Positions 2,161-53,900 of a DNA stretch of 64,000 nt are shown piece by piece. A program made the position numbers and the translations under genes. The notes beneath the pieces were generated by a model, which saw nothing but the letters and a program-made list of their open reading frames with translations, was not told the DNA's origin and searched no databases. Position 1 is the stretch's first letter, and each line of letters opens with the position of its first letter. This DNA is from Caprimulgus europaeus (lineage: Eukaryota > Chordata > Aves > Caprimulgiformes > Caprimulgidae), in NCBI GenBank assembly GCA_907165065.1, contig OU015524.1, positions 55,283,295 to 55,347,294 on the forward strand, in the 5' to 3' direction.

Positions 2161-2209
2161 ATTGGCTGCCTGCCGGGGCGGGCGGGAAGTAGGCCGCCAG
2201 CGAGCCAAT
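2161..2209. promoter_or_regulatory. inverted pair of CCAAT boxes (NF-Y type)
   Basis: ATTGG at 2161-2165 is a reverse CCAAT box, and CCAAT at 2205-2209 is in forward orientation, with GC-rich DNA between them. NF-Y pairs of this kind are common in CpG-island promoters. The pair is about 1 kb from the ARMT1 start codon, so it may serve the leftward gene expected here (RMND1). The motifs are seen; their use is inferred. Confidence 0.4.
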
Positions 2210-3108: not shown

Positions 3109-3191
3109 TGAGTCACCAATAACGTCCGGCTGCCTCGCCCCACTTCCGGGGGGCGGCCCGCCGGCTCGCGGGGGCGGAGCAAGATGGCGGC
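3109..3191 (+). promoter_or_regulatory. ARMT1: ARMT1 core promoter motif cluster
   Basis: Within 83 bp there is a TGAGTCA AP-1-type site (3109-3115) directly followed by CCAAT (3116-3120), an ETS-type ACTTCCGG (3142-3149), a GC box GGGGCGG (3171-3177) and AAGATGGCGGC (3181-3191), a YY1-type element that includes the ARMT1 start codon. No TATA box is visible. This is the usual layout of a housekeeping promoter with a short 5' UTR, so transcription probably starts near 3145-3180. Confidence 0.55.
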
Positions 3192-3224
3192 GGTCACGGC
3201 TCTACCGGTCCCCCTCTCGGGCAG
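3184..3224 (+). CDS. ARMT1: ARMT1 coding exon 1
   Basis: The ATG at 3184 gives [13 protein letters not shown] plus two bases of the next codon. The donor is CAG|GTTTAA, a weak match to consensus, but it is the one that joins in phase to exon 2 and gives a length close to the human N-terminus. The open frame runs on into the intron for over 100 codons, but that is GC-rich readthrough. Confidence 0.8.
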
Positions 3225-6200: not shown

Positions 6201-8627
6201 TCATGCTTTGTTGTGTTAATTTTCTAAAGTCCTAGTTAAAAACTTCTGAAAGAATAACTTCATATCACTGTAAGAGACTGTGGTATGGGACATACACTTC
6301 AGCAGATGCAAACACACTTGAAATGGGGCCATCAGTTCGCTACCTTCGTTCACTTGTACGTTACGGCTTTAATGCTTCATGTATGAACGCTTGAGTTCGA
6401 AATTGTCCCTGTATGTGCAGTTCCCAGAATCGTTGTGACCGAACACTTGTTCACTTTCAGAATATACTGCTAGAAATATAAAGATATCTTGTATACCGTG
6501 TTTCAGGGAGATATGATATCAGGCTGTTACTGAGATGTGTGAAAATCTAGTATGACAAATTAGAAGTGGAAAATCTAACTAGGGCCCACAGTACGGCCTA
6601 AAAAAAGCTGAGCTTCAAGCTTACACTTCAGGTGTGTTTCATGTGCTGTCATGGAAAATGCAGCAAGTACGTTAATATATTTGTTCTCTTTCTGTTTTCA
6701 GCCCACCTATTGACAACTTTGACGTATTTAAGGAAGGAAAGGCTCAAAATTTCTTTGAATCCCAAGAGGCTATTATTGCTTTATGCACTTACTTTCAGGA
6801 ACTCCTGAAAAATATCAAGGATCTAGATGAAAAGAAGCTTCAGGACGAACTTTTTAAGCTACTGCAGGTAAACTAGTAGTGCTTAAAATAAGAATTTAAA
6901 ATATCTTTCCTATGTAAAAAAACCCAAAAACTTGACATTATAAAGAATCTGGACTTTGTATGGAAGTTAAAATATTAGCTCTTTTGTTTGTAAAAATGTG
7001 ATGAAATCCTGACAGCCATACTGTATTGCTGCTACTCTGGAAATATTTAAATTTTGGTTACTTGCATTAAATATGACATTTTCATTATACTGCTGCTCTT
7101 TGTTGTGTATTTGAAAACCTAGCTTATTCTCCCTCAAACCCATTGTCTCTAAAACGTTTTAAGTCAAGTTCCAGATATCCCTTTTGTTATTTAACTATAA
7201 CATTTTAAAACAGTTTGTTTTATTTACATTCTAAAAAATTTTAGTCTTCTTTGGGGAAAAAAGTTAGAAGTCAGTCTGGGCCAGAAGTGATTTAAAAGCT
7301 TTATAGCTGCATTGTTCTTGGAAAATAATGCCTTTAGGTAGAACACAAAATATCATAGGATTACAAAAAAGTCCATTAGCTGGCAACAGTGCACAGCAAG
7401 TAGTTGATGAATCTTTATAAAGACCTCATTAGTGTGTACTTAAAATACAAGTTCTTACTTGGCTGCATGTAATAAAAAAATAAACCTGCTTTTGTTACTC
7501 ATTTTTTCTGTGTTCCCACTCATATTTTCTGGAATTACAGTATAGAGAATATTTGTGTTTTAAGCTTTGTGATCAGTGTATTTATGTTGATCTAAATCTT
7601 CTGTCTTTGTCATTTCTGATGGACGTTTCTGATGCCTGCATAAATACAGAGCTTTGTTTGGTTTCTGCCACAAAATCTTGTCTATATTAAGGTTTCTGTA
7701 CATGAAGCTGAGTTTTATTAAGGCATGGAGGAAAATGTGGAGTTAGAGCCTTCATGCCCCTAAACCAAAAGCAAGCAAACAAAATACTCATCATTTGTGA
7801 AGTTTAGAATGCAACTACAGTGAGACTTAGCAAATGTTTTTGTTTTTTCCTACTTCTAGGTGTCACTGTGGGGCAACAAGTGTGACCTTTCTTTTTCAGC
7901 TGGCAAAGACAGCTCTCAGAAATCTAGTCCTTTACAGTCCCTGGAAAACATGATACCTTACATCTTAGTGAATGATATGGAAAAACTCTGGTCAGTACTT
8001 GTAAACGCCAAAAAAAGAAATACAGGAAAAAGTAACGTTAGAGTTGATATAATCCTGGATAATGCGGGATTTGAACTCGTCAGTGATCTTGTATTGGCCG
8101 ACTTCCTGTTATTGTCAAAACTAGCAGATGAAGTCCATTTTCATGGAAAAAGTATTCCATGGTATGTGTCAGATACCACAAAGCGTGATTTTAACTGGAC
8201 TATTAAACAACTGCAGTCAGCTAATCATATGTGGATGTCTAGGTGTGGGATAAACTGGGAGGGCAATTTGAAAAAGGGAGTTTGGGTTTACCATGATCAC
8301 ATGTTTTGGACTTTGCCACATGACTTTTCCAGTATGGCTGAAGTTGCTCCTGATTTGTATGCTGATCTACAGAAGTCAAACTTGCTTATTTTCAAAGGTG
8401 ACCTAAACTATAGAAAATTAACAGGAGATAAAAAATGGGAATATACTGTTCCATTTCATCAAGCCTTGAACAAGTTTCATCCTGCTCCTCTCTGTAGTTT
8501 GCGAACACTGAAATCGGACACTCAGGTTGGCCTAAAACCTGGCCAAGGTGAAAAAATTCAGGCTTCTGAACCTGAATGGATGGTAAGTGGAAAATACGGG
8601 GTGGTTCAGTTTGATGCTGCTCTGTAG
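3184..8627 (+). CDS. ARMT1: ARMT1, DUF89-family damage-control phosphatase / acidic residue methyltransferase, 5 coding exons
   Basis: Joining 3184-3224, 4059-4164, 4718-4959, 6702-6867 and 7860-8627 gives 1323 nt, that is 440 residues plus stop; human ARMT1 has 441. Every intron is GT-AG and the phases (2, 0, 2, 0) agree across each junction. The family (DUF89) comprises metal-dependent phosphatases acting on phosphometabolites such as fructose 1-phosphate; the human protein has also been reported to methylate glutamates of PCNA. An all-helical N-terminal region of about 185 residues comes from exons 1-4. The catalytic domain lies in exon 5, with the metal site LDNAGFE (D252, N253) and D290 in VSDTT, then [10 protein letters not shown] at about 363-372. 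All expected metal ligands are present and nothing is broken. The start at 3184 has a YY1/Kozak context inside the CpG island. The identification is firm; the least certain part is the exon 1 donor. Confidence 0.95.
4059..4164 (+). CDS. ARMT1: ARMT1 coding exon 2
   Basis: This exon of 106 nt follows a pyrimidine-rich acceptor CTTTTTAG and ends at GAG|GTAAGA. It encodes the conserved stretch [16 protein letters not shown] and then [18 protein letters not shown], close to human ARMT1. It is too short and too far from any ATG to appear as a long open frame. Confidence 0.95.
4718..4959 (+). CDS. ARMT1: ARMT1 coding exon 3
   Basis: This exon of 242 nt has acceptor TTTCAG and donor GTAAGT. It encodes [20 protein letters not shown] and, further on, [15 protein letters not shown], strongly conserved helical segments of the DUF89 N-terminal region. 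It enters in phase 0 and leaves in phase 2. The open frame upstream to 4679 is intronic. Confidence 0.95.
5187..5440 (-). mobile_element. CR1 LINE 3' fragment in ARMT1 intron 3
   Basis: The left edge is AGAATCATAGAATGGTTT, the reverse complement of the CR1 3' tail with its 8-bp terminal repeat. It is followed by the typical reversed CR1 3' UTR (GGAAGGGACCTTGAAGGTCATC and onward to CTGCCCTCTTCCAG). About 250 bp remain of an element that is strongly 5'-truncated, as is usual for CR1. It lies between exons 3 and 4 of ARMT1 and does not touch the splice sites. Confidence 0.9.
6702..6867 (+). CDS. ARMT1: ARMT1 coding exon 4
   Basis: This exon of 166 nt has acceptor TTTTCAG and donor CAG|GTAAAC. 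It completes a split Asn codon and encodes [20 protein letters not shown], then the helical part up to FKLLQ. It enters in phase 2 and leaves in phase 0, consistent with its neighbours and with human ARMT1. Confidence 0.95.
7860..8627 (+). CDS. ARMT1: ARMT1 coding exon 5, catalytic domain and stop
   Basis: The acceptor TTCTAG precedes GTG TCA CTG TGG ([12 protein letters not shown]). The exon holds the whole catalytic core: D252/N253 in LDNAGFEL, the helix VLADFLL, D290 in PWYVSDTT, the segment [15 protein letters not shown], and [17 protein letters not shown] near residues 363-378. The C-terminus [13 protein letters not shown] then [11 protein letters not shown] ends at TAG 8625-8627. It has no frameshift or missing ligand. 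GTG at its start is an internal valine codon, not an initiation codon. Confidence 0.97.
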   Translation: MSLWGNKCDLSFSAGKDSSQKSSPLQSLENMIPYILVNDMEKLWSVLVNAKKRNTGKSNVRVDIILDNAGFELVSDLVLADFLLLSKLADEVHFHGKSIPWYVSDTTKRDFNWTIKQLQSANHMWMSRCGINWEGNLKKGVWVYHDHMFWTLPHDFSSMAEVAPDLYADLQKSNLLIFKGDLNYRKLTGDKKWEYTVPFHQALNKFHPAPLCSLRTLKSDTQVGLKPGQGEKIQASEPEWMVSGKYGVVQFDAAL

Positions 8628-13730: not shown

Positions 13731-15110
13731 ATAGAATCATAGAACAGTTTGGTTGGAAAAGACCATTGTGATCATCTAGTCCAACAATAAACCTAGCATT
13801 GCCAAGACTAAAGTATGTCCCCAAATATCACATCTACACATCCTTAAATACCTACAGGGATGGTGACTCCCTGGGCAGCCTCTTCCAATACTTGACAACC
13901 CTTTCAGTGAGGAATTCTTTTCCAATATCCAATCTAAACCTCCCCTGGTGCAACTTAAGGCTGTTCCCTCTTGTCCTATCACTTGTTATTTGGGAGAAGG
14001 AACCAACACCCACCTCACTACATTCTCCTTTCAGGTAGCTGTAGAGAGCAATAAGGTCTCCCCTCAGCCTCCTCTTCTCCAGACTAAACAACCCCAGCTC
14101 CCTCAGCCGCTCCTCATAAGACTTGTGCTCCAGCCCCTTCACCAGCTTTGTTGTCCTTCTTTGTACACCCTCCAGCATCTCAATGTCCATCTTGTAGTGA
14201 GGGGCCCAAAACTGAACACAGAACTCGAGGTGCAGCCTCACCAGTGCCCAGTACAGGGGCAGGATCACCTCCCTACTCCTGCTGGCCACACTGTTTCTGA
14301 TACAGGCCAGGATGCTGTTGGTCTTCTTGGCTACCTGAGAACACTGCTGGCTCATGTTCAGCCGGCTGTCAACCAACATCCCCAGGTCCTTTTCTGCCAG
14401 GCAGCTTTCCAGCCACTCTTCCCCAAGCGTGTAGCATCACATGGGGTTGTTGTGACCCAAGTGCAGGACCTGGCACTTGGCCTTATTGGACCTCATACAA
14501 TTTGCCTCATCCCATCGATCCAGCCTGTCCAGATCCCTTTGCAGAGCCTTCCCACCCTCAAGCAGATTGACACTTCCACCCACCTTGGTGTCATCTGCAA
14601 ACTTACTGAGGGTGCACTCAATCCTTTCATCCAGATCATTGATAAAGATATTAAACAGAGCTGGCCTCAACACAGCCTCGGGCAACACCGCTTGTGACTG
14701 GCCGACAAGTGGATTTACCTCCATTCACCACAACTCTCTGGGTTGTGCATGCAGCCAGTTTTTTACCCAGCCAAGAGTCCACCTGTCTATGCCTTGAGCT
14801 GCCAGCTTCTCTAGGAGAACACTGTGGGAGACAGTGTCAAAGGCCTTGCTGAAGTCCAGGTACACCACATCCACAGCCCTACCCTCATCCACTAGGCAGC
14901 TCACCTGATCATAGAAGGAGATCAGGTTGGTCAAGCAGGACCTGCCTTTCATGAGCCCATGCTGGCTGGGCCTCGTTCCCTGGTTGTCCTGCATATGCTG
15001 TGTGAGCGCATTCAAGATGAACCACTCCATGATCTTCCCCGGTACTGAGGTCAGGTTGACAGGTCTATAGTTCCCTGGATCCTCCTTCTGGCCCTTCTGA
15101 GACCTTCCCT
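13731..15110 (-). mobile_element. CR1 LINE, 5'-truncated, with broken reverse transcriptase ORF
   Basis: The left end has AGAATCATAGAAC, the reversed CR1 3' tail, and the element reads right to left for about 1.4 kb. On the - strand it encodes the C-terminal part of CR1 ORF2: YLDFSKAFDTVSHS near 14820-14880, the catalytic box [10 protein letters not shown] near 14578-14604, and the C-terminal [16 protein letters not shown] near 14035-14080. These pieces lie in separate open frames with stops and frame changes between them, so the copy is dead. Open frames on the + strand here are shadows. It lies in the ARMT1-CCDC170 intergenic space. Confidence 0.95.
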
Positions 15111-18100
15111 GTTAGCCAAGGATAATCATAGTCTTTCAAACTTCCTGTGAAGAAATTTTCATGCTCGTAGGAATTTCTTTTACCTTTCTTGGGATTCCAC
15201 TTACTTCTTCCAAGTCCTTAATAAAGTAACAGACTATGAGCTGGACAGGCTAAGGTAAGGCCTACCAAGGTATATATTACAGGCTTTTTTGTTTGCTTTC
15301 TTAATAATAACTAATTGGTAACCCTCATACTATCATGGTAAGGCTGTTGCTTTTTAAGTGACTGTGATTGATTAAGGGCCTGATGATAGTTGCATCTTTC
15401 AATGTGCAGTTCACACTGAGTTTTGTCTGCAATTGTGGTATTTTGCTCAGGGATTAATCTTCAAGGACTTGGTTGTTACCAAATGTAGAGATACACTGCC
15501 TGACACCTGGGCAAATGGGTGGTGGAGTAGAGGCAGATGCCATCCAGGGCTCCTGGATGTATGGAAATATTTCCTCCCCATGTATGGAAATGCCTGTACA
15601 GAAACAGGGAACTGGGAGACAGCTAAAGTACAAACTCCTCCAGGCAGAGAAGGGCCCTGCCACTTGCTGCGAGGTCTCTAGTATCTTTACGTGGACAAAA
15701 AGTATCGCCATGTCACTGTAATGGCTGTGTTCTTGATTTTGGGCCATCCTGAATTCGAGGTACACTTGAATGCCTTTGGGATGTGTTGGATGTGCAGTTC
15801 TGACTGCATCAGTGGTGCCATTTGGCCCTTAGAAGTTTTACTGCTACGTCTCTTGATCATGATGAAGCAGTAGCAGGAGCTAGCTGCTCAGTGCAAATCG
15901 GGGAGTTCCCACACGTATGTGGAAACCTAGGCTCCACGTACAGAGAATTTCCAAAATAACTGCCTGAATTCTAATTTAAACTTTCAAAGACTTTTTATCT
16001 TGGTTTAACTGCCCCAAACTGAAAATGACCTAATATGTCAGCAGGGGCTTTCCAAGAAGAAACTCAGGTTTTCAAAGCAAATAATTTTTTATAAATTGTC
16101 CTTTTTTTTTTAACCATACTTTTGTTTTGATAGCTGCAAGTATCACTTAATGGAATTTTTTTGCCTTTTATTTCTTTTGACATTATGCACTTATGGATGA
16201 TGTCCTGAGCTGGAAGGGGGTTGTGCTAAGTGTTTTCTTCTGTGTCCTGTCTCTCCTATGTCTCCATGCATAGATAGATAGAGATATGTTAGTCTGTCCA
16301 TAAAGTATTTTTAACCAAATATTTGCTTACATGGACATTATCTTAGTACTGTTCTTGTTTCTGTCTCACTCAAGTACAGTTTGTATTTTGGATATGATAC
16401 TTGAATTTACAAGTAAAAAAGTTCAACTGTAATTTCTAAAACTTCAGAATATTCTTTGTGAAATGTAATGTTTGTTACAGCATGAAGCTTTGCATTTTCA
16501 TTATTGCTGTTTGCCTTGTGTTTCAGAATTAACTTTTTGTTTTCAGTCCATGGTTATCCTGCCCATACAAGATAAGAAGGCCTCTAGTAATGCTATCATA
16601 TAAATGTTTGGTTAGCTTTGTCATCCAAATATAGTTAATATCTGCTCATGGGCAGACTAAACTGTTTTATTGACACATAGATCTTCAGGAAAACCTCTCC
16701 AGAAGTGATTTTTTTTCACTAACAGTTCTGGGAAATGACTTGCTCAGACCTGAAATATGGGTGGGAATCATGCTTAATCAGATTCTGCGTTAAAATCTCA
16801 CTTCTTTCCCAAGTCTGATTAGTTCCCTCATATGCATATTGCATTTTCACCACCCCACTTTCTCCCAGTGTGGGGGAGTCCAAGGTTGTAAAACCAGCTG
16901 GCATATTTCCTTCAGAAGATTTACTGACCCCATGAGATATCTCCATCAGTTTAGCTGAGCTATGCAAATCCACATTGGAGGAGAACAGTGTTAAACTCAA
17001 TTGGTTTTTTTGGGAAAAAAAAAAAAAAAGACTCCCATTTTGTTTAAGCAGAGGAACAGCTAGACTTAATCAGGCTTGTTAATACTTCTTAAGCTTGTCC
17101 CCTATCAGATTTACAGTAACAACTGGTATCAGACACAATTTACGCACACACTTCTTAATCATATTAGTGATATTGTCTCTCCACCAAAAAAAAAAAAAAA
17201 TCCCTATTTTTTCCTGATAACTGCATTAAATACCTTTTCCTCCTAGAAATCTGTAAATGTGTTATGAAATTACCTCCAGAGAGGCAGTATCTCTCTTTGT
17301 TAACTGAAGTTTTATTTTCAATTATATGTTTACATCAAATTGGCTGTCACTGGTTGTGAGCCAGACTTCAGTGTCAGCTGACGAAGAAATGGGAGTAAGT
17401 CCTGTCTTGATTTCTTCATTATTTTTTTAAGTAGGTGAGCAAAGGATAAGGCACTCCTCAAGAAAACTATCTCTGCTAAAGGATGTGATACTAGTGATTT
17501 GAAGGGGTGGAGGAGGACTGCAGCTTGGTGTTGGACATAACTGTGCTTCTAGAGTTAATACCTTTTGGAAGGCAAGCAAATGAGAACCTTGGCAAGTCAT
17601 GCCCATGACTTTCAAGCCAAGTATTTGTGAAAATGTGGCTGTTTAGTTATTTTAGCTAAATTTTTATATAATTAAGTCTTGTGGAGTAAATTTCCCCTCA
17701 ATCTCTTTTGGAGAAATAAATTTCATTTTCCTTTTTAATGTTGCCAGTGTACAACTCTTGTTCTACCTCAGCTCTACCTGCTTTTAGGTAATGAGTGTCT
17801 GAAATGTGTGTATGCATTCAGGAAATAATTTGGAATTTGTTTGCATGAAAAACACAAAACTTCACCTTAATACGGGTTGATGTCGATGGCTTGAGGTTAA
17901 TAACAAAGCTTTTTTTTATAGTGTTAGTAAAAAAATAAATTTTGTTTTCAAAACTAATATTAAAAGTTTTGATTCAGTCTTTTAATCAATTGTTATCATA
18001 CATTTAAATTACAAGATCTGTGAACAGCAGAATTAATGAAGTAAAACTTTCTTTTCCCCCTAGATTCTGTCTTGTGGGTAGCTGAAGATCTGGCAGTTCC

Positions 18101-21024: not shown

Positions 21025-21038
21025 GTTGCCAGGGGAAC
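21025..21038 (+). promoter_or_regulatory. CCDC170: X-box, RFX-factor binding site
   Basis: GTTGCCAGGGGAAC differs from the palindromic X-box GTTGCCATGGCAAC at two of fourteen positions and keeps both half-site cores. RFX factors bind such sites in promoters of genes for motile and primary cilia, usually close to the transcription start. This one ends 21 bp before the CCDC170 ATG, in the CpG island. The match is seen; the binding is inferred. Confidence 0.6.
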
Positions 21039-21059: not shown

Positions 21060-21149
21060 ATGAGCGGCGCCAGGGCTGGCAGGGCCGGGTTCCGTGCAGC
21101 CTCCGCCGCCCCTCGGCGGGCTGACAGGGGCAGCAGCGCGGCCGCGGAG
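21060..21149 (+). CDS. CCDC170: CCDC170 probable coding exon 1
   Basis: The ATG sits in GCGGCCGCCATGA, an excellent Kozak context, 21 bp after the X-box. Thirty codons, rich in Ala, Arg and Ser, end at GAG|GTACCG in phase 0, which fits exon 2. I do not recognise the residues, so this exon is assigned by position, start context, phase and the total exon count of 11 expected for the gene. Confidence 0.6.
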
Positions 21150-27100: not shown

Positions 27101-30100
27101 TGTGTGCATTTCTTTGTAGAGGCTTATTTTACAAGATGTTCACCTATTTAAAAAGCTGTTCTTTTTTTTTTTTTTTTTTTCCTATTTAGAATAGGTAGGA
27201 GCTAAGCTTGTAATGTATATCGGCCTGGAACCACTCTGATGTAGAAGAGCGTGAAGTGAAGACATCTTGTCTCTGTCTCCATTGTTTCAACAGCAGTCAT
27301 GAGTGGGGGAGATTTGCATTTTTGTAATATATGCCTAAATACACTAGGATTGCAGTTTTGTTTGTCCTGTAAGGGAGCTGATAGAATCAAAATCTCTGTC
27401 CTCTACCACATGTGTTCTCAGCCTTGTATTGAGGATGTTAAATTTCATCATTGTATAGTCAGTGTCAATTGAAAAAAATGTTCTAATGAAACTCCTATTG
27501 GGACCTCAGGTCTGAATTTTTGTATTGAAAGATTTAAGTAGCAAAGACCAATAAATTCAATGCATTTCTGCTCTGCTGTAGATGAGCAGAACCACACAAG
27601 AATGACAAAACTTACTATTAAGAATCTAAAAGGCACAGCTAAAAGAGTTGTACAAGTGGTGTGAAGGAGACTGTGCTAGAAGCACAGGGCCAGTGCTTGC
27701 CTTCTTTTGAAAAAGGGTGAAAGGAAGTTGGTGTGGTGATTGCTGGTGATGAGAAAGCATAATTCAGAAAGGTGAAGTTATGTCCAAGTGATGGAGTTCT
27801 TGACCTTTAGACTTGGCAGATTAGAAGTAAAAGCACAAGCAGGCAAGCGAAAAAGTGACTGAGGAGCAAGTAGGAATGTCTGAGTAGGCATGGACTCTTC
27901 AACCTGGTAGGGAGACAGTAGAGGTGAAATATGATAGAGATCTGCAAAATCATGAGTGGCATGGAGAGGATTGGTGGCCATTGCTTTTTTTTCACCCTTT
28001 CTTCCAACATAAAAATGAGGGGTTGTGCAATGTAACCGAAGTCTAAAACCCAAAGTATTTTTTTCCTTAAGAGATACCTGAGGACTCCCTTTGGATTAAA
28101 GTTTATGTATGTTGAAGGAGTGACTGGATAAGTTTGTAGAAGAGGGACCTTTTGAATGTTGCTAAATACATTGAAACTGTAGGAAACAGCCTGAGCTGAG
28201 AATAGTGGGAGGCCATGGGGTTGTTGAGGGGGAATATTTTATGTGCAAGATATCACTGTGAAAGTGATGACTGATAGTGACTGTTTATCCTATTTTCCAG
28301 TAAGGGTCGGTTACTCTGGGAATAACGTATTTGGAATAGATGCCCTTGAGCAGCTTAATCAAACAAAAAGCACTGAAGCAAAAATGTTCAAAAAATGCAA
28401 TGTCTAATGGTTTTGTTTTCATGCTGCCTTCCCAGGAATCTCACGATCACTTTCTTTTGGATATTCCTGTCACTAGAGAGCGGATGAATCACTATTGAGC
28501 TGCAGCTGAAACTGCTCAAAGTGAACTTGCAGCACTTTCGGTGAAGTATGATTGTGCCCAGTCAGAGGTACATTTAAAAATACTTCCAAATCCTTCTCCA
28601 AACCTGAGAACTCCCTAAAGTCACTTTCTGCAGAGAATAGAAAGTATTCAGAAAGTCCAAAACTTCATGCGTTTGATACAGAACTTTTGTTTCTCCTACC
28701 ATAGACTATCCAGGCCATTTTTACTTTGCTTGTTTTTATGTTCAAGAACTGATTATGAACTTATATTTGAAAGATTTGAAGCAGTCTAGCTTTTTATCAT
28801 CATTATCTAAATGCAATCTTTAGTAATTAAACCTGAAAGTTAATATTTCTAAATTGTAGTTGTATAAAAGTTCTGATAGATGTCCTCCTGTTGCTGGTAA
28901 GTTAAGATAGCCCATCCTCACCTATTCCTCAAGTTACAGCTCCCAAATTTGCTTTGCTTTCATCTCCAGTGAGGTTTTGATTGAGCTAATGAGATTGATT
29001 GTAACTAGAGAGGCTGAGGAACACATGCACATCCTTTTCTGCTGTCCCTGCTATGGGGAATGGTGGCTCTTAGGAGAGAGGATTTAGTAGAGGATAATTT
29101 TTAGAGTGTCTATATTTTCAGGTATTTTTAAAAAACATATGACTGAATAAGATTGATCTGATCAAATTCAGCAATGCAGGCAGTGGTCAGTTTTAAAAAG
29201 GAGTCAAATTTGCTTTTAGGAGACATGAAGTGCTTGCATTTATTTACATATATAGGTTTAGATGCATAAATTCATAAATATTCATAAATACATAAAGTTA
29301 AACAGAAACTTGTGAACATTCATCCAACTAGTACTTTAAACATCAGTGCATTTTACAAATGTGTATTTCAATTGCACGTTATAAAGTACTTTGCAATATA
29401 CTTGCCTAGCACCTGAACATTAAAAAAAGCTCTATCAATGAAACAAAATTTCTTTAATTGTGGATAGCTGAATATGGGAAACAGCAAGAACATGTAATAT
29501 TGTATGAGAACAAATTGTTAATGCAGTATCCAGTCAGAACTACAGGGGTGAGTGTCCATTGTGTAAGCTTGAATATGACCAGTTGATTCTGAAATTACTG
29601 CAGAGATCCCCTACATTTAATTGCTATCCAGGATCAGTACTTTAAGTTTCAATTCTAAAAAGCCATACAGAATCTCATGTTTTCACAGAAATAATTTATT
29701 ACTGGAAATATTGAATGGCTTTATTTCCAGGATAACTGACTGATTTATAGATTCTTTCAGCACTGTACTTGCAAAAGCAAAAGAACAGTCAAGAAAGCAG
29801 CTGTTCATGCTCTTGTTAATAAAGACCTTCATGACCCAGCTGAGGTCAGAGCCCTGTTTTGCTGAGTGCTCTGTAAAACTCAGGCTATGGGATTATTCTT
29901 GCTTTTTCTGCTATTGGAACTGACCACAGGGACAATGGACAGAGGAAAAAATACCACATTTTGCAGATGGGGAGTTGAACCACAGAGAAATTTTAAGGTT
30001 TTGAATGCTTTAAGCTACCATAGCTTGGTCCAGCTGCCAAGCAAAGCAATCCTATTGTTCTTTCAGCTGCTCATTTCCTTCCCCACACTGCCCCATCCCT

Positions 30101-33100: not shown

Positions 33101-36100
33101 TGTGCACTTGGAGCGTACCAGTGCAGCGCTGGCAAAAGGGAAGGGACAAATGAAGGGTTAGTCTGTTCTTTTGGAAGGAACAGATATGTTGAATTCATCA
33201 TGAATCTACAGGGTGTGCTTTCAAAGCTTTTTCTCATCTCAGCTGATAGTTACATGGGCCACAATAATAGTCAATGTATCAATTTAATGAACTTTAGCTA
33301 TTTAGTCTGGCCACCTTAGTAGCATGTGGCACACAACCAGTCCTAACTAGGTATTCAAGAAAGATTTTTTACTGAAAGCCATTAATAAAAGGGAGGAGCA
33401 AGCCAGTAGGCATGAAATGCACATTTACATTCTATACATACAGATATAGAAAAAATGTTTAATGAATTCTGTGATTGGTTTCCAAGATATATACCTCTCC
33501 TGTTGAAAATGGTGCTTTTCTACTCAACAGGTCTATTGCCAAGGTATTTTTAGAGCCTGAACTCTGAAAAGCTTTTTTTTTTCTCCTTTTTCCTCTCCAC
33601 TTTGCTCATTAGTTCTGAAGAGCTAGCAAAACTGGGTAAGAGCTGCATCCTACTTTTTGTACCCGATTGCCTGTTTTCTAGCTGCTCACACCTTTACGGC
33701 CCTACTGAAGGTAATTAGGTTATTTGTAGAGTTTTCAAGTATGTACTTTGTACTTCAGATTGTTTAATTTTAGAAGCAAGCATGGTTCTGTGTGTGATGG
33801 GCCTCAATTTTTCAGAGCCACAAAACAGTTTGCAGGGTTGGCAGTCAGTCTCATGCAATATTCTAACATCTAGGCATGCATATATGACATTTCTGGGGTC
33901 TCATACCTTTTAACTTCTGACATACTCCTTGTCAGGACAGTGGTTTAGCAACCATCTCACAGCTTAGTTTTGCTGGGGCTATAGAGAAGAGGAAGGTGCC
34001 CGGAGTTGAAAGCTGCAAGACACTTGTTTTCTGAGGGCCACTGCCTGCTGCAGAAGGCAGAGCTCTTTTGGCTCACAATGTGCACTGTGCAGTAGTACAT
34101 GAAACTGTCCTCATCCTGACCAGAGCAGTAATTAATTCTTCCCATTCCTTTCTGTTATTTTTCCACTGTCTTCCACTTTGCAGCATTGACAACAACTGTG
34201 CTGATCTCCCTCCTAAGACACCACCTGAATTTTTTTTCATGGGCCATCTCTTTTGCTTAGTGATTTGTATCTATTTTACGTACTGTGTTTGCACTCACTG
34301 TGTGTTTCTTGGAGGCACTGTTTGTTGATGTTACCTGGTTCTTGTGTTTTATTGAAATCTTGTGCTGAGAATGAGGTTAGGATCATAAAAGATTCTTTAA
34401 AGTGCTAATCAAAAGCAAAGATGAAGAAATGTGTACCCATAAGGCAACAACATGTATGTTAAATAACAGACACAAAGAATTATATATAACTAAAAATTCA
34501 TTTTGTGGTATGCATAAGCTAGCAATAATCTGGGGATAATGTATTTAAAGAACATTCATCCTGATGTGTGTATTTTTTTTCCTGTCTGATTAGTAAATAT
34601 TTGAATGACTGTGAAGAAAGCATGACTCAAGCTTCTAAAATCAGCAGAAAGTATGAAGAGCTCCTTACGCAGCTTTCTGGATTCTTGAACCTAGACATCA
34701 GAGAAAAAGAGAAACCACAAGAACATTTAATGTCAAAGGTGATTATAAGTAGGCAAGGGTTTCTGTACAGAGATTTAATAGAAGGATATTTGGTTGTCAA
34801 AGAAATAAAGCAATTAATGATGATAGGAATCTTTGTGTTAAATAATGATTTGCAGACATTGCTCTCACTTAAGACAGATTTATTTTCATATCGGGTTGAT
34901 TTTCAAAGGTGTCGAGCACTAATAGACCTCAATGAACTCAGTCTGGTCTTATCTGCATAAATATTTTATCAACCTGTAGTTACTAAGTACAACCCTGATT
35001 AGATACTTGGTTGAAAGCTTTCCTGAAAACATTAATGCTGGGAGTCACTAGGTGACATGTAAATTGTACACTAGAACTTGACGCTTATCTTAAGCCAACA
35101 TACCATTAAGTAGAAACATCAGAAATTGCATATCCTAAAACTACCTTAACTATGCCCTGTAACAAAATGCTGTAAATCACTGTGTGGTGTTTTTGAAAGC
35201 TAATCATAAAACTTTATTATTTCTCTTCAGAATATTTCTGAAGTTCCAAAAGCTAAGCTTCCATTTAGGGAAGGAAAACTGTAGACTCTTCTAGCCTTTA
35301 TTGGTGCTGCTGAAGGGCAATTTATCCTAATTGTATGCGTTTTTCTCATGTTCTGTCTAATCTTTGCTATCCCTATTTTTCTTCACTTGGGAGCATACTA
35401 GGTATTTTGGGAGATTTTGTTTCATTATATTGATATTATTATAAGAGTTCTGGCTATAAGGAATATTTAATAAATTAAGATTATCTAGTTATGTATCACA
35501 GTGATTTCTTACAGTCCTTGCCCGTATAACATTGCCCAACGTAACAAGTATATGTTGACATCTTGTTTTAACAATGTAGTAATAAATCTGGTCGGGAAAT
35601 CTAATTTGTGCTGAAAACTGCATTAGGAAGACTTATCATCTCATTTTTCTGTTTAGGGTCACGGTATGTCTATTTAGCTTCTTTTCCACATTATGGTTTT
35701 ATTTAAGACAGAATTGATCTGCCTTAATCTTAATGAACATCTTACCAGTAGGAGTCAGAGTACATATTTTTTTTTACCTTATACACTCTTTGAAGTGTCC
35801 ACACTCATCTATTCCACTTCTTGGAAATAGCCTAACGTACCGAAACAGCTCTAGAGTCCTCCTGGAAACGACTGATTTTTCCAAGGTGTTGACTGCTCAG
35901 AATAGCAGCCCACCAGGTATTTGGCTCTGCCCTTGAATATGCTTATGAAATAGCTGTTATCAACTCAACTCTCCCTATGCCTAAAAAGTTTCAAGGATAA
36001 AATGCAGCTTTCAGTTTCTTGTTACACAAGACACATAAATCTTAACAAGCCAAACTAAAATGCTCTGCTTTTCGCATGAAGTTAGTTACATGATCTGTTT

Positions 36101-38864
36101 TAATTTTCTGACCTGTTTTAATACACAGTGATAGTAGCTCTCCACCTGTTTAATAGATCATGGAGGTTGTGTGGGAGTGAAACAGTACCACATAATACTA
36201 AGGTGTGGGTTTCTGGTGAGAATATGGTTCTTATTTTAATTGTCTTTCTGTTCTTTTTAGAAAGAAATAGTAGAGTGCTGTTATAAATCTGACCTAGGGG
36301 TCACCAGAAACACCATATCTTTATTAGGATGATTAGGAGCAGGTATGCTAGAATGAACATATGTCATTGTTAAGTGCTTTCAAAAAGTTACTAAAATTTG
36401 AATTATTTCTCTAGGTCTCAGAAATATGTAAAGAAAACCTGACACTAAAAGACCACATTGCTACTCTTCAAGAAGCTATCAATGTCCATGAAATGGAGTC
36501 CAAAGCTAGCAGAGAAACTATCATGAGGCTTGTTTCAGAAGTGGCCAAGGAGCAGAAAAAGGCAGCAGGATGCTATCAAGACATGGAAAAATGTAGTAAG
36601 GTACATAATTGCATGACATATATGTTTGTCTACTTTTCAGATGTTTTCTTAAAATTTCAAATTAATTTTCAATAGGAGTTGTAGGAGAAAAAGTGCTTCT
36701 GAAAGACTTCTGGTGATTAGGGTCTTTTCTAAAAAGGACACTTTTCTAAACTTATTCTCAACTTTTTGAAAGCTTGAGAGTATATGGAGATTAAATAATA
36801 ATATTGTGTAAAATAGGTCTGATTTAGATTCGATGTCTTCCAATGATGCTTGCAAATTTATATTTTTTCTTCCTTTGTATTGTTGTAGCCTTTGCTGTGC
36901 TTGCACAAATGGGTAAATAAACAGGTGTTTTTTAAAGCAAAGTAAACAAATAGAGTTTATGAGTATATCTGAGACACAAGCATGAAACAGTGAAAACATA
37001 CTCTTTTAAATAACATTTATGTGATATTGCCAGTTTTCTGAGGATTCTTCTAGTCAGTTTCTTTAAAAATTCTAATGAGAAATTGAAAGGAATTGATAGG
37101 ACACTACTTTATTCTTTCTCTTAAGGAACTGGAAGTGTCTTGGCTTCCAGACAACCTAGATTATCTTATTTCACTGCATTATAGACTTGTATTTCATAAC
37201 TGTAAATAGTCAGTTGACTCATACCCAAAAAGTTGTAGGCAGTAAGATGGCTCTCGCAGGAAAGCACTATTTTGCTGTGGGGAACCCATAGAGAAAATCT
37301 GTGCAGCAGGAATGATGCTGAAATGAGAAATATAAGTTGCAAGTCAGATGTTCACCAAATTCACCTAGGTATGATTTGGAAAGGAAAAGAATGTGATTTA
37401 AGAATTGACTTGCTCCAGGACAATTCACCTTTAAGAGTTTTTCTACATTGCAGGGGATGGACAAAGTGACCTTCTGTAGCAGTTTTCCTTATTCCTTTGT
37501 ACTTTGAGTGATAAGTGTGGAAAGGGAGTAATTTACTAAAACCATAATGAAAATGGCACTAGGTATTAGAGCAGTGTCATTAAAGCAGATGGCCAGAACT
37601 TAAGAAAAAAAGAGGAGAAACTTTGCCAAATATGTAGCCGAGCTGCGTGTGACTGAGTTTGTAGAAATTTTTAAAATAAAGGCAGTTGTGTGCAAGTAAG
37701 TTTTCAAATGTAATGTGACATTTTCACCACCTCCCTGGCATTACTTTTTTCCTGAACAGAAGACCACCACCTTACACTTTAAAGGATAAAGTGCTCCGAT
37801 TTGGTTGTAGGCAAGATACTTGGCCTACTTTTGTAAGCAAAAATGGTGTCCCCTGTTTCCCTGATGGGTGTCTTATTAGGTTACAGGAAGGGCACCAGTG
37901 GTATAAAGTTGTTTTGACTTTGTCATATACTTTGCTGCACAGTTTAAATAAGCACATGAACAGAGTTGCATGTGTCGTGACATGTTTCCCTTTGAAGGTG
38001 AAAAGATGACAGTGTGCTCTGGAGAAGAAAGTATTTGTTGTAGGGAAGATAAATGTTAAGTACCACAAGGGTCATAAATTTTCCTTGCTGCTAAAAATAG
38101 TTCTTACTAAGTTGTGTAAAATTTTCTAAGGCTCAAATGGGACTGAGAGAGAACCTGTATCAAAAACTTCCACAGGTCCTTTATGAGAACACTTTGCTCT
38201 TGTGCTTCACTTCAAACACAGGAGTGTGAGTAGGGGCAGAATGTGAGCTGCTCACTAAGCAAGCCACAATCGGGAGATGTTTTAAACCAAGATGAGAGTT
38301 TTGTTTGTGACTTGCTTTGCAAGTTTGCTCTGACTGCCAAAACATTTCCCAAGTTGAACTATTTGTATGAAAAATATTTTCCTATCATTATTGTTCATAT
38401 GCCAAATATGTAATTTATTTAGCCCATTTAACAGAAATGTCTTGCTAAATTATTAGCATTGCCTTTCAAATGAAGCGTGTGCCATCAGGGCTTACCTCGA
38501 GGCTGCAGATTCCTCCAGTGCTGTTTCAGTTTAGCTCCTTAAATTTGCAGATACTGAGTAAATACATTGAAAAGGTTTTGTGTTCACAAAAGCATATTAA
38601 GAAATTCAGTATTGAAAAAAATAAGTAAAAAACCCCAATATGCTTTAAATCCACACATCTAAAGGAGGGTATATGGTGTCCCCTGTTTCCCTGATGGGTG
38701 TCTTATTAGATTACAGGAAGGGCAACAGTGGTATAAAGTTGTTTTGACTTTGTCATGTACTTTGCTGCTCAGTTTAAATAAGCACATGAACAGAGTTGCA
38801 CATGTTGTGACATGTTCCCCTTTGAAGGTGAAAATCAGAAATCTGCACTGTTCCTGTGCCAGAA

Positions 38865-44900: not shown

Positions 44901-47900
44901 CAGGGTTTGTTTTCGTTTATGTGTTTGCATGTTTACCCTTTTGATGCTATTTAAAAATCTGTGTATTTTTAGTATTGTATGTTTATATTTTATTTCCAAG
45001 GGTGCCTCCCAAACTCCTTTTTTGTCCATCCTCACTGCTGATCTACATAAATACTCAGAGATTTACTACTTGATTGGCATGTATTCCCTTGACATAGATA
45101 ACTTACTATGCTACACAGTGAGCACACATAGACCCTGAGAGACACCTGAGTGGTCACCATATTTACAGCTGCTCCAGGAAAAAAATATTTAACTCCAATG
45201 TACACACTCTTAGTTCATATCAATCCATTACTGAGCCTCTACTAAATAACTGAAAGTTCCAGAGAAAGGCAGTCAGTATTAATATGCCATCCTCTGGCAT
45301 AATTTTGTGTCTCGTGTGAAGTAATTTTCTTTCCCACTTGTTCCTGTCAATCAGATAATACCCTGAGGAATGAAGACTTAGTCATTGCTATAATTTTAGT
45401 TGGTTCACTGCAAATTTTATTCTTGTATATGAATGTGTAAGCACTCTTAGTATTGATATTGTGGGGAAAGGAAAGAGTTTCACCAGCTGACTGAATGAGA
45501 GAGATGATTTTTTCTTTATGTTTAGATAGGTTATTTTCTGTCATCATTAAGTTTTGTGTCATGGGTCAGGATACACAGTTCTGTCTGTCTGCTCTGCCCT
45601 GTTGGGTCGATAGTTTATGTACAGCTGATATAGATATATACGTACTGGCTATTTTTTCTTTTTTACAAACTGAGTCTTGATTCATCAGAAAGTAAAGGGA
45701 AAATAACTTTTAAAAGCTCTGGGCTTAGAAGGAAATAATTATGGGTATCAGGGGCTGAATGAGAACCGTGACAAAACACCAAAGATCTGAGGATGTCCCT
45801 GAGCAGTAAATCCTATGGGCTATTCAGCAGGTAACCTTATCTTGCAGTACCCTGTCTCTGTACCAAAGAGAACATTGTCTTTGAGTGTATTACTACTGAA
45901 ATGCAAGGGACTGACTTCTTAAAAAAAAAAAAAGTTACAAGGATACTGGATAGAACCACAAACCACCATCCCATTAGTTCTTCCCCAGTCATGGTTCTAT
46001 ATACCGACACCCCAGCTGAGCAGCAGATGGGGGCAGTTGTAGGCTCTGTGGCAGGACACAGCTCTTAATTGACTTCTATTCCTCAGCCAAATTTGACTTT
46101 ACAGTAATAAGGATCTTGCTTTCTTCAGAAGACGCCTGTCCAGGTCAGGATAATTCCCTTTTAAAAATTTTTTCTGAGTGTTTCACAATCTAAGGATTTC
46201 TTTGAGGTGAAATTGGTATTTGAGCATTTGCATCTTCTTTTATGCTGTTTTAATGTCATAATCTTTTTTTTTTTTTGTTTGACCCCTCACTTCCCATTTC
46301 TATATATAAGTAATATCAGGAATTTTTGTCACAGTCAGATAAGCTTATCTCAGAGATCATTTCTAATTCTGCTCTTAACACTGTATTCAAAGAGTTCATG
46401 TGTATTCTTTTAGTCAGGCCTGAATTCATCAAGCAGTTGGACTAGATGATTGTTGTAGGTCCCTTCCAACTGATATATTCAGTTCTGTCCTGTTCTTTTC
46501 TAGTCTATGTTTTCCCCTCCGAGGTGTAGTGCTTTGGCTTTATTTGTGTTACGTCTTGTTCACTGTTTGTTTTCTAAGTCATATTAGCTGAATGAAAAAG
46601 TAAGATAGCAATAGTTTTTAAAAAAAAATACTTTTTTATGTACATGTAAATTTTATTCATGTATTCCTTCTTGCAGGCCACTGCAAGAGGTTAGTCTTTA
46701 GCATGATTACAGCAGGCTTTGGGCTTCCATCAATTTCAGTCAGAGTTCTCCTATGAAGCCCTGATGTTGAGCCCATATGAGCAATACAAGTCCTAATTTC
46801 TTTATCTGTGGTACCTGCATCTGAGTCATTCCCAACTTTGTGTGTTGAGGGGAGGAGTTGTAGCAAATTTTAAAAGCCTGTTTTAATCTTTCATGTATTT
46901 TAGCATCTTGACAGCACCATCACGGGGAAACAGAGTTTGGAGATGGAGATCAGAAACCTCCAAGATAAACTGACTGCTAACCAGAAAGATCTGGATGCCT
47001 CAAAGCAGGAACTGCACAATCTGAAGAAATCTTCCAGTGAGCTGGATGAAAGCTTGAAGAGCAGCAGAGAAGAGGCCAGGGCTGCTCAGAGATCTTCAGT
47101 GGCTTTTAAATAGAAAATTGCTACTCTACTCAGTGGTGGATCTGCAACAGTTAAACCTTCTGAGAAGGCTATTTTGGAGAGGATCCAAGAAATAAATTGC
47201 AAAGAGGAGACTAAAGAAATAGTAAGTCAGCAACTACTGCACTCACCCAATGTGTGTATTTATTCTTTTTGGATTCTTTTTCATTTTATTAATCTTAGAG
47301 AGTGATGGTTCCTTCTGCTTAGGTTTTATCATTACAGAAACTTTTAATTTAATTGTTTATTGATGTGAGATAATAGGTGAAAAGCATCTATGTTTTATTA
47401 AGTAGGAAGAGGTCAGAAATTAAATTCATAACAGATGCTATTAACAAGAAAAGACATGTAATGGTCTTTCAGTTAAGACATTGAAATTTGGTTTCAGTGC
47501 CACTTAGCGGACATCAAAAGTGGCTGCGTGGTCACTGTGATTTAGTGGCACATGTGAACAAGTATGGATTTGCTGCTACAATAGTGACTTCAAGGACTGA
47601 CCTATTTCTCAAAGCAGACATAGTTTGTGAGTTGCTCCAGGCAGCTCCTTTCCCTCCAATCCTCAAAAGCTGCACCTAAAAAGAAAAAAAGTGTTTTTTT
47701 ACAGTTAAACATTGCTGAAGCCATAACTGTTCACCATCCAGGAGGAAGGCAATAGGAAGGCAGGTGGGTATTCTAATGCTTTGGCTTGAGGGGTTTTGCC
47801 TGCTAGTGTTTGCAAAGGTCTGTTTGCATGTACAGGTAGAGAAGGGACAGCTCAGGAGGAAGGTGAGACAAAGTACCGTCTGACCAATGTCAGTATCTTG

Positions 47901-50900
47901 ACACTGCACTTAGGTTTCTCACTTGCTTACATGGGCATATAATAATTTTGTTAGCAAGGACTATTATTTAATTAAAAATCACATGCTAAAACAAAAACTG
48001 TTTTAACTGAGCCACTGAAAACCAACTTCTGTGTCCTTGCCAGATTTTGAGATTCTAGCATCTCCTGCTGATGTGATAGTCTTTTATATTAGCAAATGTT
48101 TTTGTATTCTATCCAAGATTGGAAATAGCTCTTCAAAATATTCCTGTGTGTGTTGTTTAAATATTTTGTTAAAAAACACCAAACAGCTCCTTGTAGAGCT
48201 GTAGTTTGTAGTTTGAGACAGTATGCCAAATTTCAATGAAAGCAAGCTTTGTAAACTTTATTAACATTTGAAAGTGAACTGCTGAATTGGAAGCGTGGCA
48301 GCAACATTTTAATATAGCTCTTCACAGTTTTGCTATACATCATGGCATATTGTTTCTGTAAGCAAAATACTTTCAAACTGAAATCTAATGAGAATTCTAT
48401 GTGTATTTGTGTTTGTACTGTTTGGTGTTTTGACATACAGTACACTCTGTTGAGATGTTGATTAGTTTGAGAACTGCTGAGAAAGGACACTTTAAGTTAA
48501 CTGATAGCTATTGAGTAAAAAGGTTTTGCTCCTGGGAATGTTTTCTGGTGGCCTGCTGCTTTTGTAGGATTCAGTTGTGGCTAAGTCATTTTGCATACTA
48601 TATCAAGCAGCTGTTGGTCTCTTTGTGGATATACTACAATACATGCATAGTGTGTGCTACGTATTTCAGTTCTTATTGTTCCTGATTTTGTTCCTTAATA
48701 TTAGCCTACTTTACCATCCTGCAGACTGGTCGTATTGGGGAGGATTCAAACTTGGTAATTATTTTATTACAGATACAAATTTTCCAGCTGCTTGAGAGGA
48801 ATGTGACTGGTTCTCCAATTAACAGCATTGCTTAGAGAGTCATGTTCTGTTACAGAGAACTACTGTAAAATATACAATGATCAACTCTTATTTTTCTAAA
48901 TAGCTGTGATTATTCTTATTTTAGAGGTAAATAATCTGATATTCAGGAAAATAGATAGTTTTCCATAATTGTGTTAAAATGTATTTACTTGTGTGCTGTG
49001 CTCTTGCCCTTCTTTCTCTTGCAGAAAGACCTGTTAACTTTTGCAATGAGCATGAAAACAGATTTGTTTTTCAATATTATTGCCCTCAAAAGTAAACAGA
49101 TGTGCTAAAAGGAAGCCTTTATTACTAAGACAGATCAGGTATCAGCTGCAGTCTGTTCCTACCTGAGTCTCTGCTTTGGAACTAAGATGCTGGTATTACA
49201 GTTGCCAGCTTTTGTTGGTTTGTTTTTATATAGTAGAAGAGCTATATCAGGTATGTTTAGTGTAGCATTCTGCCTTTGCTAGCAAATACAGCAATTGCCT
49301 GCAATACTTCTAGCAATACTCGCTTGAAATGCTAGTCCTTTCTAAAAAAAATCAAACCAAACCAACCCAACCCAACCCAAACCAACTGTGGCTCAGTTGC
49401 CTGAACCATAAATATTAGCTTTAAATTTAATGTTGCTTCGTGCTTTGGTCATTGTAGTTGAATGATGAAGTTCCGTGGGTCATTGTATTTGCTGAGTATT
49501 TTACAGAATCACAGAATCACAGAATCACAGAATATTAGGGATTGGAAGGGACCTCAAAAGATCATCCAGTCCAATCCCCCTGCCGGAGCAGGAACACCTA
49601 GATGAGTTCACACAGGAAGGCGTCCAGGCGGGTGATTTTAAGTGATGAAGCTGTAATGTTTTACTGCCGTGACTCATTTGGAAAAATGTGTTTGTATTCC
49701 CTCAAAGTGAACTGTGTTGCTAAAGCAGTGCTGGCATCTGTTCTCAGAAGAGTTTCTACATCAGGATTAGGAGATTTGAAATAACTAAGCTGAAATGCCA
49801 ATATTATGCACCTATGAATCTCTTTCTAACAGAACATAGACTTTGTCATAAAAAAGTTATTTTACAGTGATTTGCTTTTCTTTATGCAAATCAGAATTAA
49901 AAAAAAACCCCATTTTCTAAGGTTCTATTTTTAAGGAATGTACATGTTGGTATATATGAGTCGATCAGATTCCTATTGCATCTCTGGGTGAATTTCTTTC
50001 CAGCATTTGAATCAGGAAAAAGATTAAATGTCTTCAGATAGGATTTCGTATAGACCTTTCAGTAAACTGTCCAATCTTAAGTAAAAACCCCACAAAAGTG
50101 AGTCATTAAACTTCTTGGCAGGGTAAATTAACGTGTAGTGTTGCTGGTGCCCAAGCTGGCTTGTTTCAAAACAGCCCCTTTGTGGCTGCAGTACAGCAGC
50201 CAGTGCCTTGCTGCTGGAAATTAAAAATGTGCTAATGAATGTGCTAATGCATAATGGGAGGAGGATTATAATTATGTCTTTCCTTTCTCTGAGTAAAGAT
50301 TGTTTTGTTTCTGTTGAGACGTTGCTGCAAGCAACTTGCCTTTGCAAACTGGATTAGTGGGATCAAGAGAAGACAATGCAAGAATCTGGGAGAAAGAGGA
50401 CCCTCCCTGTTTGAGTGTTTTGATGCCTTCTCGAAACAGGTTTTGTTGTTTCACTCTTAAATCATCACTGCAGCCCCTCTGGGAGTTTTGTGTGTAGGAT
50501 CATATACACTAGATGAACTGGCACAACGTTCATCTTTACCTCTAGATAGCCCGGTCAGCTATCTGGTTTACCTCTGCACCTGCACCTGTCAAACAGAGCA
50601 GTGGAAAGTTTAAATTTTACAAGGCCTGTGAAAAAATTATTCACTGCAACTGCCATAGTCAGATTTTCTGTGAAATCCTGAAATGCTCTTGATTATATCT
50701 GCTGGTTATGGTGATTTTGGTATCTGAAGGGTATCTAAGTTAGTAATAGTATGTATACTAGCCCTTAGCATTAACATTAGCAAAAATAGTGATTTCATTT
50801 GAAAAAAAAAATCAGCATATACACTGACAATGTCCAGTGGTAGGTATTCTATTGCAGGATTGAGAAACTGGTTTGAATCAGTGTCCTGATGATCTCTTCA

Positions 50901-53900
50901 GCAGTTAGATAGTAAGATGTGTATCATCTGAATATGTTTGGACAGCTCTTGGGTGTTTTTGTAATTTATTATTTGTAACGTACCGGAGGGGTTCACGGGC
51001 ACCTGGAGTCCAAGGCAAGCAAATGTTCTCAGTTAATACAGAGCTCAGGCCTGGTTATGAGGTGTCTGGATTCAGGTCTTTTGTTTGACAAATTTTGTTG
51101 CAGATTTGTTGCAGCAAATTAAATTCATATGGCTGAAACTGTTTCTCTTGACTACCTACCCTTTTGACCTCAGATAGGAAGAGCTGATCTGATTGTAGAT
51201 TGTCTTAAATTTATCAGTTTTTATCATTGCATATTGATATACAGACTCTTAAATGCCAAAATTGATTAGGCTCTACTGCTACTGCCATTAAGGTCTCCTG
51301 TTCTCATTTCTTAATGATATTTATGGCAATGTCATAAATACATATTTAGTTTTAGGGTTGTATGCACTTTATCCTTCCAAACAAAAGAATTGAGTGGAAA
51401 ATAATTTGTGAAATTAAATTAAACATTGATAAAAGCAGAGTAATATATGTACTGACCTAGGGCTGACCAAGAAAATCCCAAACAGCTACAGTGTGAGAAA
51501 TTATCAGGGTAAAAGTTGAGAAGAAAATGAAAACCATAATTATGCCACTGTATAAATCCATGGCTGCTACATTCTGAGTAGCACACACAGTTGTGATAAT
51601 TTCATTCAAAAAAAAGGGCTTTCAAAAAGTACCAGGAAGGGCCATGAGACTGTCTAAAGGCTTCCATGGAAGGAAAGACTCAACAGAAAAAAACTTTTCA
51701 GCTTGGGATGATGGGTCCAATGCAGTAGAACAAAATAGCAGTTTTAAGTACCGTGATAAGAAATGTATCAGCTTTAATGCTTTTCAGCTGGTAGGGATCT
51801 TAAAAAAATTTGTCCTAGGTACACACATGAGTGTGCCTATATGAATACATACAAAGCAGTAGAAGTTTAAGATAAGATTTTACCAAACCAGAAACTTATT
51901 GTCAAGTTAATACTAAGAAGACGAGAGTATTTAATTGTTATGTTGGAAAAGAGGAAAAAAAAAAAAAGCCACTATGATGTGGAGGAACTTGTAACTTCAT
52001 CTTACATGTTGCTTTTTTGCACTGAAGTCTACCATGTGCCTGTCTGTGACTTTGGGCTGTTAAGGGAAATGCCTTACCTGGTGCATAGCTATAGCCTGCG
52101 CTCTGTTCTGGTGTGCTGTGGGGCTGGGCCTGGTGTTTGCACATGCCCAATGTTCCCAAAGGTTTTACTGAGGATTATTTAGTTGCAGCAGGGATGAACC
52201 CTGCTGTCCCCAAGGTAGGACCTGCCTCTGGAAACAAGTGTTTGCAACTTCTTATAACACAAGAAATAAAAGGTCTTAATTTGAATTATTTGGTAGCCGC
52301 ATTAAAACAAAAAACAGGAAGTATTTTTTTGCAGGAGAGCTGACCAAGCTGCGCAAGTCATTGGCACAAGAAATTGTGGAGGTTGGAACTGCAGGACCAA
52401 AAATGCAGCCGTTGTAAATTGCTGGATACAGGCATGGGTGGGGAATAAGGTTTTGGGAAATCCCTAAGCTGATTGTCCCTAAGCCAAAAGTGAAGGTTAC
52501 TCCAGGATGCTCTGGAAGATCAACCAACAGCCTGATGGTTTTGTGGTCTTACCTTCTGTTGTATGATCCCTCACCTTCTCATGTTTATAGACCTTTGCAG
52601 CCTGTAAATGCCCCACGTGTCTGGGCTGCCTGCAGAGCTGCTCTGCAGCCGGATAAAGGGTCCCTGGGCTCTCTGGCAGCAGCGCGTCTCTGCGGGCACA
52701 AGTTACTGAAAGCTTTATTATTGTTAAGTGTTTTCTACCACTGCAGCAGTAATTTCTCAGTGTTTGTTGAGTGGTGAGTTGGGTGCAAACTATTGTTCGT
52801 ATTTAATTGCCATCTAAGTTGGAAACTTTTCTATGCCACTAAAATTAATGGGAGTTTTGTGTGCTTATTGTTCATTTCACTAACACGGGGCAAGCAGATG
52901 CTTAAAATGGAGACTGTTTGGAGATGAGTGTCTGAACACTAAGTTACAAATGCAACATAATTAATAATATAACCAAATAATTATATGACAGTAAGAAGAG
53001 GAGAGAGGGGAAGAGGGAAGCAAGCAACTTTTTGAATAGAACTGTCTTTCAGTATTTGGCAGTGGTGCTGCTTTCAAGCATTTAATTTATATGTACTTTA
53101 CAACTTAAAATCCATTACATTGTGTGTAGATGTTGCAAAGTTAACAGTGTAGAGCTAGAAGTGTTTTCAGAATTGTTAGATTGGTTTCTTGTTATGACAT
53201 TTTGTCCTTTTAGCCTTGGGCTTTGGCTAGGTTACATGTGGGGTTTTTTGTTGGTTTTTTTTGTTTGTTTGTTCGCCTGTTTTTAATTTTTTTTTTTAGC
53301 AAAATCTTTTAGTTAAACACTCTTTAACAGTTAACAATTGGAAAGCACTCCTCTGAGACTTAGTGATCCGTATCTATATTCTCACCCACATGCTGCAGGT
53401 ATTTTCTAAATCACTCTCATCTCTGTTTCCCACTCAGCTCCTCAATAGATTAGTGATATTATTGACTTATTTTAAAGAATGTTAGTTGACTTCCAGGTGT
53501 TGCTGGAAAAGTCTTTGGAAAGTTTGTGGCTAAATTAGTTTATACTATTTTTTAATAGATATTAGCTGCTTTTAGTTGGTTAAGTCATCTTAAATATAGA
53601 ATCATAGAATGTTGTGAGTTGGAAGGGACCCACAAGGATCATCACGTCCAACTCTTGCCCTAGCATAGGGCAATTCCAAGATTCAGACCATGAGCCCGAG
53701 GGCCTTGTCCAAATGCTTCTGGAATATTGTCAGGCTTGGTGCCATGACCACCTCCCTGGGGAGCCTGTTCCAGTGCTCCACCACCCTCTGTGTGAAGAAC
53801 CTTTTCATAATGTCCAACCTAAACTTGCCCTGGCACATCTACTGCCATTTCCCCTGGTCCTATCACTGGTCACCAGAAAGAAGAGATCAGCACCTGCCCC

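Follow-up and report, generated by a model that had tools for sequence, protein, structure and literature searches.

Whether the European nightjar (Caprimulgus europaeus) still has a working CCDC170 is the question raised by a 64,000-nucleotide stretch of contig OU015524.1 (the window, positions 55283295–55347294), in which a sequence-only reading had identified a premature stop codon in the second exon of the gene. The explanation that best accommodates the locus, at a probability of roughly two in three, is that CCDC170 is a young unitary pseudogene, or that the sequenced bird at the very least carries a null haplotype.

The gene was rebuilt using a tblastn query with a presumed human CCDC170 protein sequence, which matched exons 2–10 collinearly on the plus strand (36.6–121 bits) and an exon 11 beyond the window. 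The rebuilt gene has ten coding exons inside the window and an eleventh just past its end, with the lengths of exons 1–10 taken from the splice model:

21060–21149, plus strand: exon 1, 90 nt (30 codons), GC-rich, with an ATG after GCCGCC, an open frame and a weak donor (GAG/gtaccg)
28436–28567, plus strand: exon 2, 132 nt, phase 0-0, with splice sites and homology flanking the stop, 44.3 bits
31145–31401, plus strand: exon 3, 257 nt, 100 bits against the presumed human sequence, with supporting junction phases
34594–34738, plus strand: exon 4, 145 nt, 36.6 bits, the lowest among the nine homology-found window exons
36415–36600, plus strand: exon 5, 186 nt, 75.1 bits
46904–47221, plus strand: exon 6, 318 nt, phase 0-0, 84.7 bits, with a gapless alignment either side of a stop
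54831–55031, plus strand: exon 7, 201 nt, with an ATG at its start, 69.3 bits
56830–57003, plus strand: exon 8, 174 nt, 87.0 bits
58270–58512, plus strand: exon 9, 243 nt, 121 bits
59403–59639, plus strand: exon 10, 237 nt, 95.1 bits
1431–1670 bases past the window end, same contig: exon 11 (last), intact, with a normal TAG stop, 90.9 bits

The joined 11-exon frame is 741 codons in length and ends at a normal terminal stop. All ten donors (GT) and all nine acceptors (AG) of the model within the window are present, the GT-AG pattern continues to exon 11, and every window junction is in phase 0 except that between exons 3 and 4, which is in phase 2. Two of the 740 codons before the terminal stop are premature stops, compared to 55 and 66 of 740 in the alternative frames, and no frameshift, splice-site lesion or start lesion accompanies these two stops in the rebuilt gene.

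The chance level for these matches was set by 20 residue-shuffled queries, which reached a maximum of 31.6 bits (mean 26.7), and by the reversed query (28.9 bits); exon 4 lies closest to this maximum and, taken alone, is the least secure of the homology-found exons. Exon 1 is predicted from its ATG, frame and donor, with no homology to the query. The collinear exons encoding a coiled coil identify the gene as an orthologue of CCDC170, and the gene identity originally proposed is upheld by homology to the presumed human sequence. As in CCDC170 of other vertebrates, the exons follow the order of the presumed human protein and ARMT1 adjoins the gene, lying upstream on the same strand, where an expected gene order ARMT1 - CCDC170 - ESR1 would place it. 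Identity to the presumed human protein ranges from 33 to 69% per matched stretch, with the exon 4 stretch extending beyond the exon, and the stops at codons 51 and 340 would set the CCDC170 of this bird apart from that of other vertebrates. Pfam searches with six CCDC170 exon pieces produced matches below the cut-off or none, and in the PDB the 20 residues preceding the TGA had no match, while exon 3 matched a single unrelated chain (E 0.36). A match to the presumed human C-terminus at 48025–48057 (7 of 11 residues) was set aside as chance, as the true last exon beyond the window scores 90.9 bits. A processed (retro) pseudogene was rejected because the ten window exons are split by GT-AG introns. 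Intron sequence separating exon 5 from exon 6 also contains two direct copies of a 162 nt sequence (37843–38004 and 38673–38834), 95% identical and 830 bases apart from start to start.

The stop from which the analysis began was confirmed in place and in frame:

28496–28498, plus strand: premature stop 1, TGA, codon 51, exon 2, read in sequence and frame

Exon 2 is bordered by an acceptor (..ccttcccag/GAA) and a donor (GAG/gtacat), is in phase 0 at both ends, and contains a stretch that spans the stop and matches the presumed human sequence RDHLNHYRNAAETARSELAATLVKLECAQSEL at 21 of 32 positions (44.3 bits). The frame is set by the phase-0 join to exon 3, as proposed earlier, together with the homology flanking the stop, and it is independent of exon 1. 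The placement at codon 51 and the truncating effect also stand; the numbering leans on the predicted exon 1, while the premature stop itself does not. The description of the exon 2 splice sites as normal is correct to the extent that the GT and AG are present, but the donor is not a strong one (1.2; the acceptor scores 6.0, all splice scores using an assumed position matrix). The human residue at this position is presumably arginine, in agreement with the query sequence, and the change of CGA to TGA through CpG deamination would be a plausible route to the stop.

A second stop occurs further downstream, in a separate exon and 289 codons from the first:

47111–47113, plus strand: premature stop 2, TAG, codon 340, exon 6

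The TAG is aligned to the glutamate of the presumed human FREKIAALL, which reads FK*KIATLL in the bird, and the protein around codon 340 aligns without gaps on both sides to the presumed human SFREKIAALLRGR. Based on this glutamate, GAG to TAG could be one route to this stop, and CAG or AAG to TAG could be others. The single-stop interpretation was accurate for identity, frame, codon 51 and truncation, but it was incomplete, having missed this TAG. Since the second stop lies in exon 6, the locus holds two lesions and not one suspicious base, and the question raised by the locus is corrected accordingly.

The two stops occur in the only copy of the gene recovered from the assembly (1,177,730,439 bases, 121 contigs). 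A 300-base query around exon 2 matched the whole assembly once, at exon 2 itself, and all five matches to the protein of codons 52–339 were the window's own exons, with the best 17 candidates scored; no second copy of codons 52–339 is present among the scored candidates. Combined, the searches with codons 52–339 and the exon 2 DNA make the absence of a duplicate or retrocopy likely. A 69-codon piece of exon 6 produced 63 pattern matches in viral_contigs and 427 in genome_contigs, none of which was confirmed.

With in-frame disabling lesions at codon 51 (TGA) and codon 340 (TAG), the sequenced genome probably carries a disabled CCDC170, and a fixed loss is likely. An mRNA composed of the normal exons would meet the TGA at codon 51 and yield a product of 50 residues, and translation restarting downstream of the TGA would still meet the TAG at codon 340. 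An early stop with many junctions before the last exon would also be predicted to mark the transcript for nonsense-mediated decay. Selection on the protein may have ceased only recently, with the splice sites, the last exon and the promoter with its X-box-like motif still whole. Gene loss of this type is an ordinary evolutionary event, and a single-copy gene lost to nonsense mutations is the standard form of a unitary pseudogene.

The few lesions in an otherwise intact gene are also consistent with a segregating null haplotype, in which both stops sit on the assembled allele and working alleles remain in the species, particularly as one assembly represents one haplotype at each place. Segregation of this kind is unlikely; two nonsense mutations on the same haplotype would require either an allele that has already been null for a while or the coincidence of two rare events.

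The age of a recent loss of CCDC170 was estimated from the 661 codons inside the window, using assumed rates (a transition weight of 4, a CpG weight of 8 and 2e-9 changes per site and year) and indel ratios of 0.03–0.15 for a calculation from the two stops and 0.03–0.1 for a calculation from all lesions. Under these assumed rates, the two stops alone would correspond to 0.029 neutral changes per site (interval 0.0035–0.105), which rates of 3e-9 to 1.2e-9 per year convert to 9.7–24 million years. At this two-stop divergence, indel ratios of 0.03–0.15 predict 1.5–7.3 frameshifts and none was seen (P = 0.19–0.01, averaged over divergence). Inclusion of all lesion classes would lower the estimate to 0.007–0.0125 per site, about 1% neutral divergence at the assumed rates, equivalent to 3.6–6.3 million years at 2e-9 per year (intervals 0.4–22.6). 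Two disabling lesions would both be nonsense with a probability of 0.185–0.062 at assumed indel:substitution ratios of 0.03–0.1 and, with no indel observed, a plain decaying pseudogene is therefore only moderately well matched. The absence of indels argues mildly against a long-dead gene, and is compatible with a loss of young age, with a segregating allele or with a pair of base errors.

The promoter region of the gene holds a motif of possible relevance to its regulation:

21025–21038, plus strand: X-box-like motif GTTGCCAGGGGAAC, RFX-type, with 21 bases between the motif and the predicted ATG

The match to GTTGCCAGGGGAAC, a pattern that we take to represent the X-box/RFX motif, is the only exact one in the window; when the window is shuffled, 4 of 100 versions contain one. 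When one mismatch is allowed, there are two matches against an expectation of 0.83, one on each strand of the same site, and at least two matches occur in 20 of 100 shuffles. The motif suggests that a putative RFX-driven ciliary promoter has been kept intact, and it agrees with the standing of CCDC170 as a ciliary candidate and its expression in ciliated sites. In the CilioGenics study, STK33 and CCDC170 are among 16 ciliary candidates placed under six ciliary transcription factors, with CCDC170 found at cilia or the cilium base (PMC11317154). A review places CCDC170 expression in sites with ciliated cells, and none of the 37 publications counted there reports a function of CCDC170 in motile cilia (PMC6163198).

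A precedent for the loss of a candidate ciliary gene in birds, and the nearest bird case identified, is STK33, described as a unitary pseudogene in neognath birds that has lost whole exons, carries indels in 28 of 28 neognaths studied and is dated to near 100 million years (PMC4509753). Both genes are ciliary candidates that bear premature stops and that have been lost in birds, in the case of CCDC170 probably, without a duplicate. Unlike CCDC170, with two stops and no indel in one genome, the STK33 loss is far older and more decayed. CCDC170 is treated as an annotated gene on GGA3 in a chicken study (PMC8151682). Among the best literature matches listed, the titles and opening lines of abstracts of open-licence papers do not mention that birds have lost CCDC170.

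It is quite unlikely that CCDC170 still works, either through a coiled-coil protein of approximately 590 residues produced by the skipping of exons 2 and 6 (44 and 106 codons) or through a downstream start, such as the exon 7 ATG. Either exon could be skipped in frame, each being phase 0-0 with a length divisible by three, but 7 of the 9 internal window exons (2 and 5–10) are phase 0-0, and skippability is therefore nothing special. The splice scores of these two exons (acceptor 2.3 and donor 3.7 for exon 6) also fall inside the range of the other CCDC170 exons, for which acceptors score −5.8 to 7.3 and donors −0.8 to 8.1, the donors of exons 1 and 7 being −0.8 and −0.7, respectively. Alternative sites within exons 2 and 6 amount to a single out-of-frame acceptor scoring above 1; donors all score 2 or less. 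Exons 7–11 are open for 364 codons and the exon 7 ATG has an A at −3 and a G at +4 in the spliced sequence, features in favor of a downstream start. Set against this, exons 1–6 would receive both of two randomly placed lesions approximately one-quarter of the time (376/740 squared), and the positions of the stops are therefore no evidence for such a start. It is highly improbable that the locus is changed and not dead, with the full-length protein given up and the ciliary promoter and exons 7–11 making a short C-terminal CCDC170 from the exon 7 ATG, a truncated form arising through normal evolution.

That one or both stops are absent from the bird, due to base errors or damage in the assembly, is improbable. 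The TGA from CGA, and the TAG if derived from CAG, would each be a C to T change, as damage or systematic error can leave behind, and an error rate of 1 in 100 bases would give a probability of 0.15 for at least two nonsense errors in the 659 sense codons inside the window. This probability, however, falls to 0.002 at 1 error in 1,000 bases (Q30) and to ~2e-5 at 1 in 10,000 (Q40), and two control genes are without stops. The first of these is the local control:

4059–8627, plus strand: ARMT1, four exons (4059–4164, 4718–4959, 6702–6867 and 7860–8627), with the first exon of the gene outside the model

These four exons are open for 426 codons to a normal stop, and the last contains the Pfam domain ARMT1-like_dom (E 8.9e-67). 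The second control, the alpha-A globin gene elsewhere in this bird's genome, has 142 codons with no stop, and there are no N bases in the window. The alpha-A globin scores 258.8–279.2 bits against the leading single-chain entries, presumably birds (quail, emu and goose first), before a drop to 222.3 bits for the next group.

Recoding of the TGA was rejected, as an Rfam scan of the window at gathering thresholds returned no match, and therefore no known element supports recoding, which would in any case leave the TAG unexplained.

If the loss of CCDC170 is fixed, the nightjar would represent a natural knockout of a gene with links to cilia and microtubules, one that human genetics, because of its proximity to ESR1, has also tied to traits of bone and breast. 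A living bird without CCDC170 would mean that motile cilia and sperm can do without the protein in that lineage, and another candidate ciliary gene would join the precedent of STK33 loss in birds.

Several observations were made beyond CCDC170 itself. A whole-genome query with hen egg lysozyme produced one exon-sized match (C7:42883444–42883557, 55% identity) with the best 4 candidates scored; a match this weak is below expectation for a bird and could reflect divergence or the limited scoring of candidates. Degraded LINE-like open frames occur on the minus strand of the window at 13855–15111 and 53808–54400. Within the first, positions 14728–15111 match Pfam RVT_1 (E 3.6e-17) and 13855–14436 has no Pfam match at 0.001; the fragment with the reverse transcriptase match is presumably CR1-like, in keeping with a bird genome. 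Upstream of ARMT1, positions 1–4000 of the window have a GC content of 58% and are probably a CpG-island promoter.
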